From NCBI GenBank assembly GCA_903941105.1, contig CAJANL010000043.1, positions 1 through 64,000 on the forward strand: 64,000 nucleotides of DNA, written 5' to 3'. Below are positions 57,078 through 61,817 of this stretch, piece by piece. How positions within the stretch are numbered: position 1 is the stretch's first letter; every line of letters begins with the position of its first letter. Made by a program: the position numbers and the translations under genes. The notes under the pieces are model-generated. The model worked only from the letters and a program-made list of their open reading frames with translations, did no database searches and was not told the DNA's origin. The stretch is from an uncultured Rhodospirillaceae bacterium. GTDB taxonomy: Bacteria > Pseudomonadota > Alphaproteobacteria > Rhodospirillales > Magnetospirillaceae.

Positions 57078-57096
57078 AATGGCGGAGAGGGTGGGA
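57078..57096. repeat. Left attachment-site repeat (partial tRNA-Ser 3' end)
   Basis: AATGGCGGAGAGGGTGGGA is identical to 61726-61744. It contains the CCA end and acceptor/T-arm part of tRNA-Ser on the minus strand, but the rest of the tRNA is absent. This is the duplicate left by site-specific integration. Confidence 0.88.
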
Positions 57097-57370
57097 GAAG
57101 AATACCAAACCCGCCAAACCCAAGATTTCCCGTCCTCGGAGCAGTTTCCGCCCCAGTCCGTGGCGGCCACTTTGTACCACTTCGCTGTCCAGTGCAATCT
57201 GAGGCGGGGCCGATGTGCAATTAATTGCATAACGCCCTCAGGCTTGGCCCCGTGTTCAGTAACTATTGACTGCCCGAATGCGGGTTAGCGGTATTGTCTA
57301 TATCAGGCCTCAGGGCCGGCGCCCGGTGCGAAAGCCAGTACGCCTTCCCGCCCTTACCATCCGATGGAAC
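57097..57370. other. Non-coding left flank inside the island
   Basis: About 270 bases between the left repeat and the nuclease stop hold no supported gene. Features seen: a TGTACCAC at 57173-57180 matching two copies near the other end; a perfect 14-bp palindrome TGCAATTAATTGCA at 57216-57229; and a possible TTGACT...TATTGT promoter-like pair near 57265-57300 with no gene after it on the plus strand. Confidence 0.5.
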
Positions 57371-58099
57371 CTAAGGCGATGACTGGCGCTTCCGCTTGGG
57401 TCTAATGGGTGGTGTTGGCGCGGGTGGCGTGGGTGGGGGTCGCAAGGGGGCGGCGGGATCACCGGCCATAAACACATGGTGAATTGTGAAGGGAGCGGGG
57501 TCGGCTCCCCGACGATGGGTTGTTTCCCTAATGCGAGCATCTGCTGGTCGGCTAGCAGATGGCTGAAATTGACCGGGAATACCCATGCCCAGGTCGGTAT
57601 GGTGCGTTGTGATGTTGGCCTCCACGCCAGTAATAGCGCTGGTGAGATTGCCGTCGAGTACGAAGGCGAGCATGCCCCCAAACCGGACTAAGCGCGCGTA
57701 CTGTCCGCGAATGAAGCGGAACATCCCAAACCGAACGTATTCAGAACTGTACGCCCGTACGGCGCCACCGTAGTCCCGGACATTCAACCTCTTACATTCT
57801 AGGCAAAAATAAATGTCTTCGCGGGGGGCCATGGGAGAAAAAGTAATGTCCATCCGTCCCTGATCTTCGCCAGCGGCCGGATCCAACTCGACTTGTTGGC
57901 TGTCGATTCGTAGCGGCAGATCACGAAGTGATCGGGACTTTCGTAATGCGATGCATAAATCTTCTGATACCTTGTCCTCAAGCTCATTGCCAGCCGGCGA
58001 AGGCATGGCATGCCACGCATCGACGACTATCCCTATGATGTCCGGGACCAAGGTCTCTAGGAAATCGACCCAATCCTCAACGGAGCCCGAGTGCGTCAT
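57371..58099 (-). CDS. Putative PD-(D/E)XK-fold restriction nuclease
   Basis: The 242-residue protein matches no family I know by name. Residues 35-105 show the layout of a PD-(D/E)XK nuclease: an acidic helix (GNELEDKVSEDLC), an Asp in GRMDITFSP (near 84), and E-x-K in FCLECKRLNV (101-103). A conserved-looking core follows (YVRFGMFRFIRGQYARLVRF, then GGMLAFVLDG) and a Pro-rich basic tail from about 215. Its ATG overlaps the methyltransferase stop (ATGA), so it is translationally coupled to it. It is probably the cutting partner of that enzyme. Activity is inference. Confidence 0.68.
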   Translation of the reverse strand: MTHSGSVEDWVDFLETLVPDIIGIVVDAWHAMPSPAGNELEDKVSEDLCIALRKSRSLRDLPLRIDSQQVELDPAAGEDQGRMDITFSPMAPREDIYFCLECKRLNVRDYGGAVRAYSSEYVRFGMFRFIRGQYARLVRFGGMLAFVLDGNLTSAITGVEANITTHHTDLGMGIPGQFQPSASRPADARIRETTHRRGADPAPFTIHHVFMAGDPAAPLRPPPTPPAPTPPIRPKRKRQSSP

Positions 58100-61000
58100 G
58101 AGCTCTCCTTGGAGGAGCTCATAAGAATCGAATTGGCAATCGAATCCGCGTCGTTGAGTGCGGCTGTCTGGGTCCAGTACCTCCGGCCAATGGGCCTCAC
58201 CAAATACAGTCTTGAGCCCTCAAATAACATAACGCCACGCGTGACGTTAATGGTGGCTCCCTGCTTGCGAACGGCCAATTGACGGATATCCCTGAGAAGG
58301 GACAGCAGTTGCTTGCCCGGCGCAGGAAATGGTTCGTTGACCCGATCGCGCTCCACCTTTTCTAGAACAGCAATTCCAACGCCGAGCAGCTCTGAACCTT
58401 CTGCGTACCCTCGAACGGCAAAGGCTCCCTGTTTTGCCCATCCGTTCAACGTGGAACATAACCGCTCAATATATCTACTTTGTTCCAAACGCGATGCGGG
58501 AGCAATGGTTGGCACCAAGGGACGCGCCCTAGTCGGCCTCGTGCTCCCAATAATTATCTTTGCTGTATCTTCGATTAAAGCTCCTTCAGTCTCGATGATA
58601 TCAAAATACTCATTTATGAGCGGCGCTATTTTACAGTCGGCTGCCTGAATAATTGCATCTCTATCAGCAAAATCGACGCTTGCGGCGGCAGATTCCTTCC
58701 GAACAATACTGGCGACTTCGCTGACGATCTCATGCGCCCGTCGAGGGTCCGGTTGTTGTTCAGGCAGAGGAAACGGGAGCCGCACCACCTCCTCGACATG
58801 GACTTCTTGGCGGCTAATTCCCCAGTTCGAGGATGTGTGGAACAAAAAATAGCGAGCGAGGTTGCTGCGAAGATATGCAGCCAAGAATGCCAGCAATTCG
58901 TTATCTTCCGTTGGGCCATGAATTCCCCGGAGTGCATGTCTGAAAGAGACGTCAAAATCTGCAAAGGCGACGCTTGAGTACCCTTTAGAAACGAGAACGT
59001 GTGGTGCCCTAAAAACTGTCGTATTTTTATTTGACCGCTTTCTTACGGTTACCTTTCCACCGGGTATGGAGGCGCAATCTCTCCTCAGCAAAAAAAGGTC
59101 AATATTCTTGCTTTTCGCTTCAATAAACTCCTCCGATGGGAGGGTAAGCTCGACAGCCTCGTCAGCATCATCGCTTTCCCCCAAAGGCTGGAACCCTTCG
59201 GACATAATCCAACGCTTGGTGCCTGAGTGATCTCGCGGCTGGCGAATGATATCTCTTAGCCGTGGGTACAGCCCCAAGCGGTCAAGCAGACGCCAATCGC
59301 GTGGGGTTGCCCAGAATCGCTGCTTCCACAGTTGAGGGGCATCTGGTCCATCGAGGTCTTTAAGGAGGGAGCCGATGGTGAGCGAGGTACGGTCTTGCGG
59401 CGCAACGGTGATCACCTCCGCTTTGGTCACCGTCCAGTCAGCCTTTGGCCCCCAATATTCGATTCGATGGGCGTCCCCTTCGGGAGCTTCCCTGCGATAA
59501 CTGACGACAACGGCCGGGTGGCCTGCCTTTTCAAATAAGAAACGTTGGAAGTCCGCGAGATTAAGCACTCGTTCAATGGTGTGCGCTTTGAGCCACACCT
59601 TCTGAAACTCAAGGGCCCTCTGGCTGTGATTGAATAGCACTCCATGTGGGAGAACAAAGCACACGCGGCCATCTTCTACGACGTGCCGAGCTGCCTTCCA
59701 GACAAACGCTGCGGCAATCTGTTTATCGGGCAGGGGAAGTTCCTGTCTAGCGCACCAAATCCCGGCCGGCGACTCATCTGCTGCAATGCTTCCCCATGGA
59801 GGATTGCCTATGACAAGCGAAAACGCCCCGGAAATTTCCTCGGAGGCTTCAAAGAAGTCCATGCATCGAATGTTGCCTTCGCCCCCCTCTTCGGCAGGGG
59901 CGACTAACCGGGGAAGCGCTTTGCCCTTTCTTTGAAGGGCCTGGATATCTCGCGGCAAGAGTTTATCCAGGTAAGCAAGGTAAAGGCTAAAGGCTGTTAT
60001 GCGGCAAGCTGTGAGGCTTACGTCTACGCCAAAAAGGCTTTCCCGGAGAAGGCGCATCAGCTCCGTCGCGGCTTGGTCGTTCGGTGCGGCAGGGTTAGCC
60101 TGCTTCCATTCCTCGGCTAAACGATTAAATAAACCTACCAGAAAAATTCCAGAGCCACATGATGGGTCAAGGAAGCGCTTCCCGAGCAGGGAATCGCAGC
60201 CCTCAAGAGCTGAATCAAGGACAATTTCTGCAAGGAAGCGGGGGGTATAAAACGCTCCTTTTTCTTTATCAGCATCCTTGAGAAACCGTTCGTATATGGC
60301 ACTTATGGTCTCAATTGGGATAAATTTAAAATCATAAGGCCAAAAAGTTGTTTGCCCGGTCAGAACCTGTGTGCCATGAAAGAAATCGCACAATGTGGCT
60401 ATGTGCCCATCGCAGACCTTTTCTCTTTCGAGATCAAGATCGTCGCTGAATAGATCGCCATTGAAATCTTGGCGAAGCTTGGCGAAAAGTAGATAGAGTG
60501 CTTCCTTCGCCTTTTCTACAGGAAGTCCAAGCATGTCCCGTAGGTGCAAAATACCATCAAGTCCATTTTCTTTGAGATAGCTTTCTACAATGACCTCCCG
60601 GTCAAACAAATAGCAAGTAAACACAAGTCGGCAAAGAAGAGGGTCCAATTCCTCTTCATTGAGTTTGGTGCGGGTATCTGCAAGATTATCGAGAAGGTAA
60701 CGATCGACCCGTTGGTTGGGGTCAAAAGATTTCTGATGCCTACCAAAAAATTCACCCGATTCTACCGAAAAGATGAATTCCCCGAGCTTGTCAGCTGCGC
60801 GCTCTAAAGTTTCCACAAGGCTTGGGTGCTTGTTTTCCCCAGGAGTCGCAGGCGACGGGCATGCCATGCCGGAGTAAATTTGCACGTCCTGTCCCGTCAC
60901 GACGACGAGCAGAGAGGCGCCACCGTGATTCCAGAACTGCCGATGCAATTCCGCAATCGCTTGAGGTGTAGTTTGCTCGACAAGCTTAAAGTAGGCGAGC

Positions 61001-61176
61001 GGGGTTTGGTCGGCGCACAGCACCCCGTCAACCGCAAGAGTATCGAAGGCGCGCCTAAGGAGATGGGCCTGCGCGGTGGATGAGGATATCTCTTCCTTGC
61101 TCGTAAAGAGGCTCGGCGGAAGCCGGCCTTCTAGCCCGAACTCTGTCCGCCAGTCGCTTACCGGTGCCGTGGGCAT
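58096..61176 (-). CDS. Large N6-adenine DNA methyltransferase (Eco57I/PglX-like)
   Basis: The ATG at 61176 has AAGGA six bases upstream; in-frame TTG and GTG codons earlier are less likely. The 1026-residue protein has a 290-residue N-terminal region, FIPIETISAIYERFL (about 285-299), then AFYTPRFLAEIVLD (motif X, 308-321), motif I FLDPSCGSGIFLVG (335-348) and motif IV VIGNPPWGS (455-463), the adenine N6 signature. About 450 residues after it should hold target recognition. I see no nuclease motif at the N-terminus, so it is not an obvious single-chain IIG enzyme. It belongs to restriction, BREX or related defence systems; which one is unclear. Confidence 0.88.
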   Translation of the reverse strand: MPTAPVSDWRTEFGLEGRLPPSLFTSKEEISSSTAQAHLLRRAFDTLAVDGVLCADQTPLAYFKLVEQTTPQAIAELHRQFWNHGGASLLVVVTGQDVQIYSGMACPSPATPGENKHPSLVETLERAADKLGEFIFSVESGEFFGRHQKSFDPNQRVDRYLLDNLADTRTKLNEEELDPLLCRLVFTCYLFDREVIVESYLKENGLDGILHLRDMLGLPVEKAKEALYLLFAKLRQDFNGDLFSDDLDLEREKVCDGHIATLCDFFHGTQVLTGQTTFWPYDFKFIPIETISAIYERFLKDADKEKGAFYTPRFLAEIVLDSALEGCDSLLGKRFLDPSCGSGIFLVGLFNRLAEEWKQANPAAPNDQAATELMRLLRESLFGVDVSLTACRITAFSLYLAYLDKLLPRDIQALQRKGKALPRLVAPAEEGGEGNIRCMDFFEASEEISGAFSLVIGNPPWGSIAADESPAGIWCARQELPLPDKQIAAAFVWKAARHVVEDGRVCFVLPHGVLFNHSQRALEFQKVWLKAHTIERVLNLADFQRFLFEKAGHPAVVVSYRREAPEGDAHRIEYWGPKADWTVTKAEVITVAPQDRTSLTIGSLLKDLDGPDAPQLWKQRFWATPRDWRLLDRLGLYPRLRDIIRQPRDHSGTKRWIMSEGFQPLGESDDADEAVELTLPSEEFIEAKSKNIDLFLLRRDCASIPGGKVTVRKRSNKNTTVFRAPHVLVSKGYSSVAFADFDVSFRHALRGIHGPTEDNELLAFLAAYLRSNLARYFLFHTSSNWGISRQEVHVEEVVRLPFPLPEQQPDPRRAHEIVSEVASIVRKESAAASVDFADRDAIIQAADCKIAPLINEYFDIIETEGALIEDTAKIIIGSTRPTRARPLVPTIAPASRLEQSRYIERLCSTLNGWAKQGAFAVRGYAEGSELLGVGIAVLEKVERDRVNEPFPAPGKQLLSLLRDIRQLAVRKQGATINVTRGVMLFEGSRLYLVRPIGRRYWTQTAALNDADSIANSILMSSSKESS

Positions 61177-61221
61177 CGTCCGTCCTTCAAACACATGCAA
61201 ATCGCGCCGTCTTGTGAGCTC

Positions 61222-61419
61222 TCAGCCATTCGTTTCCCTTGCCCTGCGCCTCTCAAGCTTTTCGACAGCTGCTTCTAGAAGCCAGTTATTCCGGGAAGTG
61301 GGGATTTGACGCTGGTCGCAGGCCAGATCTATCTGGGCCACAAGCTCTTCAGGGAGCCGAATCGTCACGGCGATACGCTTTGAACAGCTTTCTTTTCGCC
61401 TCGCCACTAGCGCACCCAT
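61222..61419 (-). CDS. Ribbon-helix-helix regulator
   Basis: From the ATG at 61419 the product is 65 residues (a GTG at 61431 adds four). The segment SKRIAVTIRLPEELVAQIDL followed by a long helix is the Arc/MetJ-type ribbon-helix-helix DNA-binding fold. It lies 45 bases upstream of the methyltransferase start on the same strand. It probably controls the module, as small regulators do in restriction-modification operons. Upstream are two similar short sites, GTTGACGTCAC and ATTGACTCAAC (61432-61475), that might be its operator. Confidence 0.75.
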   Translation of the reverse strand: MGALVARRKESCSKRIAVTIRLPEELVAQIDLACDQRQIPTSRNNWLLEAAVEKLERRRARETNG

Positions 61420-61459
61420 TAGTCGATTCACGTTGACGTCACAATGATGGCAGATTGAC

Positions 61460-61636
61460 TCAACTCAGAAAATCGAAATTCACTTCGATGCAGATGGGGT
61501 CTGACGCTCGTTCAGAACGTATCTGGTCCGGGGCATCAATGCACCGCAGTCGGCGGGTGAAGGTGGCGCACACCCGGCGTCGGAACTTGTAGACCCCTGA
61601 GGCTTTCTGGCGCTGCACCAAGCTCGCTCCAAACAT
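61460..61636 (-). pseudogene. Tyrosine integrase N-terminal remnant
   Basis: From the ATG at 61636 the reverse strand reads MFGASLVQRQKASGVYKFRR, then RV and unrelated sequence to a stop at 61460. The first 22 residues match the common start of phage-type integrases (a SLVQRK-SGVYYFRRRVP pattern). The catalytic C-terminal domain is wholly missing. Its place 90 bases inside the tRNA-Ser repeat is just where an island integrase belongs. Only a short match supports this. Confidence 0.62.
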
Positions 61637-61640
61637 GGCT

Positions 61641-61663
61641 TGTGTACCACCCCTGTGTACCAC
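61641..61663. repeat. Paired 10-bp direct repeats beside the integrase remnant, possible arm sites
   Basis: TGTGTACCAC occurs at 61641-61650 and again at 61654-61663, three bases apart, immediately upstream of the integrase start. The core TGTACCAC also occurs at 57173-57180 inside the left end. Sites placed inside both ends fit integrase arm-type binding sites. Confidence 0.5.
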
Positions 61664-61725
61664 TGGGGCGGTCACGAAGCCATGATTTGCTTGGTGTTCG
61701 TGGATTCCTGCGCTGTTGGCGAAGG

Positions 61726-61744
61726 AATGGCGGAGAGGGTGGGA
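61726..61744. repeat. Right attachment-site repeat within tRNA-Ser
   Basis: AATGGCGGAGAGGGTGGGA; bases 61728-61744 are the last 17 bases of the tRNA-Ser gene on the minus strand. Identical to 57078-57096. Confidence 0.88.
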
Positions 61745-61817
61745 TTCGAACCCACGGAACCCTTGCAGGTTCTCCGGTTTTCGAGACCGGCCCATTCGAC
61801 CGCTCTGGCACCTCTCC
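61728..61817 (-). tRNA. tRNA-Ser (anticodon CGA)
   Basis: The reverse strand from 61817 begins GGAGAGGTGCCAGAGCGG and ends CCTCTCCGCCA, so the acceptor stem pairs perfectly and CCA is encoded. The anticodon arm is CCGGT-CTCGAAA-ACCGG, giving anticodon CGA, which reads UCG. A long variable arm makes it a 90-base class II serine tRNA. The T-loop GGTTCGAATCC is standard. It is the integration target of the adjacent island and remains whole. Confidence 0.97.

Follow-up and report, generated by a model that had tools for sequence, protein, structure and literature searches.

Does a long methylase gene, overlapped at its end by a small reading frame and preceded by a probable regulator, encode a restriction system divided between two proteins? 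This question is raised by a locus found in an uncultured Rhodospirillaceae bacterium, within a window of 64,000 nucleotides that represents the whole stretch of DNA analysed here. A first-pass annotation, made from the sequence alone, had seen in this locus a candidate for an undescribed defense module carried on a mobile island. The analysis reported below indicates that the methylase (M), the product of the overlapping gene (R) and the upstream regulator probably constitute a mobile two-protein restriction-modification system, Type IIG-like, with the nuclease provided in trans.

The operon and its insertion site

The features of the locus are the following:

57078..57096, no strand: att-like repeat, second copy, at the far island end (exact 19-bp repeat)
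57097..61725, no strand: genomic island, GC 53.9%, integrase gene absent inside (ORF list)
57371..58099, minus strand: R, predicted PD-(D/E)XK nuclease, 242 aa (invariant residues, predicted fold)
58096..61176, minus strand: M, N6-adenine DNA methyltransferase, 1026 aa (Pfam, PADLOC, structural alignments)
61222..61431, minus strand: RHH (CopG-like) protein, probable regulator, 69 aa (Pfam RHH_1, above cut-off)
61726..61744, no strand: att-like repeat over the tRNA 3' end, near the island end (exact 19-bp repeat)
61728..61817, minus strand: tRNA-Ser(CGA), insertion site (ARAGORN), adjoining infC in nine related genomes

The genes are thus read on the minus strand in the order RHH, M and R. M starts with an ATG at 61176, an alternative in-frame TTG at 61200 extending the protein to 1034 aa, and its stop at 58096 is shared with the start of R in an ATGA overlap (58096-58099). 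The RHH gene ends 21 bp ahead of the upstream TTG. These genes, their coordinates and the overlap were all recovered as originally annotated. The RHH protein, which scores 21.1 bits in Pfam against a cut-off of 20.5, is the probable regulator of the operon. The coupling of an RHH gene to the pair, claimed at first, holds for this window but not throughout the relatives, in which it can be replaced. RHH proteins below the Pfam cut-offs precede M in two of them (L040, L045), a MerR-like protein is found in L039 and L043 (and in L037, below cut-off), HTH_11 in L002, and a CI/LexA-like protein combining HTH and Peptidase_S24 domains in L057 (5165-5932). The upstream regulators are interchangeable, and RHH is no fixed partner. 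The CI/LexA-like regulator hints at an induction by DNA damage.

The module is a foreign island inserted in a tRNA gene, because its ends repeat the 3' end of this tRNA and because its GC content, overall and at third codon positions, is low. The 19-bp repeat, for which the chance expectation is none, copies the 3' end region of tRNA-Ser, and its two copies flank about 4.65 kb of DNA. The island GC stands against 67.3% elsewhere in the window, and over roughly the first 56 kb the lowest GC of any 4.6-kb segment is 62.9%. Third-position GC ranges from 0.54 to 0.59 in the island versus 0.85 to 0.93 in four flanking genes. The mobile island proposed by the first-pass annotation is therefore confirmed by its tRNA-Ser insertion site, its att-like ends and its deviant GC.

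The ORF list shows no integrase gene inside the island, and many integrases are encoded elsewhere in the genome. With att-like ends and no integrase, the island either was moved by an integrase provided from outside or has lost its own. In this family, the tRNA-Ser(CGA) next to infC seems to be a hot spot of integration, with a cargo that differs between relatives. As read from ORF sequences rather than from profile results, the cargo at this tRNA includes a C5-cytosine methylase-like gene in L094, and L098, L099 and L101 have integrase-like ORFs there. L095 carries a second att copy at the same tRNA.

The nuclease and the methyltransferase

R contains the motifs GRMDITF and LECKRL. All 28 of the family members compared share residues E41, D84, E101 and K103; M143 is also invariant, and H195, R197 and H208 nearly so, among relatives down to about 16% identity. 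The AlphaFold model (pLDDT 88) presents a PD-(D/E)XK core, so that the structure prediction recommended at the outset yielded a nuclease fold. The structural aligner ranked OkrAI first (Z 8.3, rmsd 3.8, 154 residues), followed by BglII, BamHI, BstYI and then McrC; since Z values of this size can stem from a shared arrangement alone, the invariant active site carries the nuclease argument. Foldseek alone returned no match at E < 0.001. On the basis of its sequence and predicted fold, R is assigned to the PD-(D/E)XK superfamily, with a conserved E...D...ExK site on the alpha-beta core of restriction enzymes, in agreement with the initial description of the small protein.

This assignment had no counterpart in the databases searched. 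In Pfam, the R protein of the window has a PDDEXK_9 match only, which is insignificant, and the nuclease matches of 20 R members are neither consistent nor significant. The family is absent from NCBIfam, PHROGs and PADLOC, no sequence relative was found in the PDB, and no R copy was matched in an annotated phage collection. R belongs to a nuclease family without a model in the standard family databases.

M carries the catalytic motifs DPSCGSG (residues 337-343) and NPPW (458-461). It is matched in Pfam by N6_Mtase (6.4e-16) and Eco57I (1.2e-12), and in PADLOC by PDLC03623 (5.7e-99, residues 126-1014 of 1026), a model that also matches 19 of 19 scanned relatives, with a best value of 1.3e-257. 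Structural alignments of the M model (pLDDT 79) were obtained with CamA (Z 27.1, residues 282-860), MmeI (Z 26.7), BrxX (Z 23.9), DrdV (Z 22.9) and BpuSI (Z 21.4), as well as with LlaBIII. A match to a TaqI-like specificity domain (TaqI_C-like) was obtained for four of the 19 family members. Motifs, profiles and fold all uphold the original identification of an N6-adenine methyltransferase. More precisely, Pfam, PADLOC and the fold designate M as an N6-adenine methylase of the gamma class that contains its own recognition region, as in Type IIG enzymes.

Target recognition had at first been placed, as a probability, in the C-terminus of M. In the predicted structure it lies more likely at about residues 600-870 than at the extreme C-terminus, because this region aligns with the recognition domains of CamA, MmeI and BrxX. 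Among close pairs, residues 709-808, presumed to take part in recognition, are no more variable than the rest of the protein; they thus give no hint that specificity has been exchanged around a constant R, a point against the reading favored below.

Outside the CamA-like core, two further domains are conserved in the M family, one of alpha/beta type at the N-terminus and the other at the C-terminus. The C-terminal one (about residues 890-1026), characterized by KPxxRxW...AxxDAD family-wide, is not covered when M is aligned with CamA, MmeI and BrxX. Its absence, together with that of R, from a phage-like contig described below (L056) makes it a candidate site for the docking of R. In the N-terminal domain, the sole conserved residues are P59 and W82, and the family alignment reveals no conserved nuclease motif (D...ExK) within M. 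The alpha-beta-beta-alpha-beta-beta topology of residues 37-102 and their position nevertheless recall a nuclease domain. A comparison with HsdR and IIG nuclease domains by HHalign, based on seven template sequences only, was not significant (P 0.49), and a profile search of the PDB with this domain found nothing. That the N-terminal domain could be a degenerate restriction-nuclease domain is put forward as a hypothesis.

Linkage, natural losses and competing explanations

Plasmids, genomes and viral contigs were searched for M, and R directly follows it in 33 of the 35 informative loci, a count that includes loci with one gene broken, mostly with a 4-nt overlap. The recurrence of the pair, proposed as a check by the first-pass annotation, is thereby established. 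The two loci without R, L056 (5851-8685) and L063 (5165-8925), are phage-like contigs and maybe fragments. In L063, the upstream side of M is overlapped by a gene for a Dam-like methylase, perhaps for self-protection against restriction. Such a gene also lies ahead of M and R in L062 (4953-9359), a copy that may have two methylases. On several plasmids, the pair is neighbored by SIR2, TIR or Shedu genes.

The same linkage was observed in genome samples. Among 398 genomes sampled evenly across the phylum, a strong long M match occurs in seven, and the strong R matches fall in exactly these seven. The second sample, 369 genomes drawn class-wide, contained one with both (G684) and no genuine solitary R. 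In the two samples combined, R is beside M in eight of eight M genomes, and convincing R without M occurs in none. Two weak R-like matches were discarded as unrelated to the module, one being an HsdR (G391) and the other covering 30 residues only (G779). The distances of M and R are strongly correlated over 26 pairs (r 0.947, the best of 10,000 permutations reaching 0.335), which shows co-inheritance rather than contact, because the pairs share ancestry. The module is more than a chance association, since its gene order recurs and the motif residues of R do not vary among 28 family members.

Natural losses provide a view of the dependence between the two proteins. In 12 Pseudosulfitobacter plasmids (for example L049, 4381-6677, plus 11 further records), M lacks about its first 530 residues and hence both catalytic motifs. 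Its recognition and C-terminal parts are kept, and R is open with an intact motif. M is split by a frameshift next to an intact R in L046 and L047; these frameshifts could be sequencing errors, and the Pseudosulfitobacter plasmids represent one lineage. The opposite case is provided by L038, in which an intact M is followed by an R interrupted by an internal stop. Other plasmid records contain decayed R remnants without recognizable M (e.g. L121). The retention of R beside a broken M favors, with limited weight, a dependence of R on M, because an autonomous cutter should be lethal without M. The Pseudosulfitobacter plasmids suggest that R is harmless alone.

The split restriction system proposed by the first-pass annotation is still the best reading of these data, in view of the nuclease fold of R, the recurring pair and the lack of helicase and specificity subunit. 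Computational support extends to the active site and fold of R, the catalytic motifs and fold of M, their tight linkage, their co-inheritance and their mobility. M would recognize a specific site through its segment of about residues 600-870 and would methylate an adenine within that site, host DNA being protected in this way. R, produced from the overlapping downstream gene, would cut the unmethylated sites, most likely in complex with M or directed by it. We infer the cleavage by R, the residence of recognition in M, the need of R for M and an anti-phage role.

The main rival is an ordinary Type II restriction-modification pair, in which R would be a site-specific endonuclease acting on its own and M would methylate that site independently. 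Autonomous Type IIP enzymes of similar size, with a BamHI/BglII-like fold, do head the structural matches of R, and with such a size and fold R could recognize a site of its own. If a single site is tracked by both proteins, M and R should likewise diverge in parallel. This explanation is nonetheless less likely: R with an intact motif persists without a catalytic M in the 12 plasmids of one lineage, a situation that should be intolerable for an autonomous cutter, and M possesses conserved extra N- and C-terminal domains that are absent from the solitary methylase CamA.

An abortive infection system would require M to sense modified, hemimethylated or invading DNA and to launch R, then less specific, on the DNA of the infected cell. 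Such a role would be in keeping with the weaker alignments (Z about 6) of the R fold to NucC, Card1 and Can2, with the SIR2, TIR and Shedu neighbors at some loci and with the CI/LexA-like regulator of L057. It is improbable, as classical restriction enzymes lead the structural matches of R, as the module lacks a gene for a nucleotide-signal synthase or sensor, and as a methylase with a recognition region is better suited to self-marking. Least probable, and very much so, is a mainly modifying or regulatory methylase of mobile elements with R as a non-restricting accessory nuclease: M does occur alone on the two phage-like contigs and beside an interrupted R in L038, but R has an invariant active site in the 28 members and is retained at nearly all loci (33 of 35).

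Position among known restriction systems

The two-protein restriction-modification system favored here can be compared with those already described. Methylase and predicted endonuclease are encoded together without an NTP-driven translocase, as in Type II systems in the broad sense, and a helicase is found neither in the module nor as a conserved neighbor. As announced by the first-pass annotation, there is no specificity subunit, helicase or BREX/DISARM gene between the island ends. Type I was rejected since the island has no S subunit gene and R, with 242 aa, has no motor motifs, and DISARM since its partner genes are absent from the module. The PglX models of BREX match only part of M, far below cut-offs, and the core partner genes are absent. 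BrxX/PglX does align with M over a helical domain, the methylase core and the recognition region; here, though, BrxC, PglZ, BrxB and BrxL are all absent, and the sole partner of M is a small nuclease. CamA and M.BseCI are stand-alone m6A methylases. CamA, the best structural match to the M core, has 577 residues and is devoid of the additional terminal domains, whereas M has a linked nuclease gene.

No description of the M-R pair was found in the open-access literature, including a paper on BREX diversity (PMC12839542); an entry in REBASE or in subscription-only sources is possible. Haloferax volcanii has a separate PD-(D/E)XK protein, HVO_A0006, which is related to Type IIG systems and affects m6A patterns (PMC4389544). 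HVO_A0006 is a fragment of a Type IIG N-terminus located beside transposition genes (PMC4389544), whereas R represents a distinct and intact family located beside its M.

The module is not undescribed in its entirety. In the Pfam and PADLOC searches advised by the first-pass annotation, the M half was matched (N6_Mtase, Eco57I, PDLC03623); R has no significant match in Pfam and none in NCBIfam, PHROGs or PADLOC. The PADLOC model PDLC03623, named 'Type IIG restriction enzyme-methyltransferase' like PDLC03603, evidently describes the same family as M. It spans M only; the nuclease is here the next gene, absent from PADLOC. Defense-finding software now sees the methylase alone and files it as a one-protein Type IIG, which the naming of R would correct. 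A probable function would be given to a conserved nuclease family that the databases do not model, and R would help to separate loci capable of restriction from remnants reduced to the methylase, such as the phage-like contigs with M alone. Modification and cleavage would also be genetically separable in this compact operon.

In Type IIG and IIL enzymes such as DrdV, BpuSI and MmeI, the nuclease is part of the same chain as the methylase. Judged on motifs, the two activities are not joined in one polypeptide here, the PD-(D/E)XK site being in R and not in M. The methylase core and recognition region of these three enzymes align with M, and the N-terminal domain of M sits where their nuclease is, whereas the nuclease of this module is the separate protein R. 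It is conceivable, as a tentative proposal, that such loci form a separate and widespread restriction class, in which the N-terminal domain of a Type IIG-like methylase is nuclease-like but catalytically dead, and the methylase recruits its nuclease in trans. If this is true, a set of enzymes now classed as single-chain Type IIG has been wrongly assigned, and R represents a family of nucleases that the databases do not yet know.
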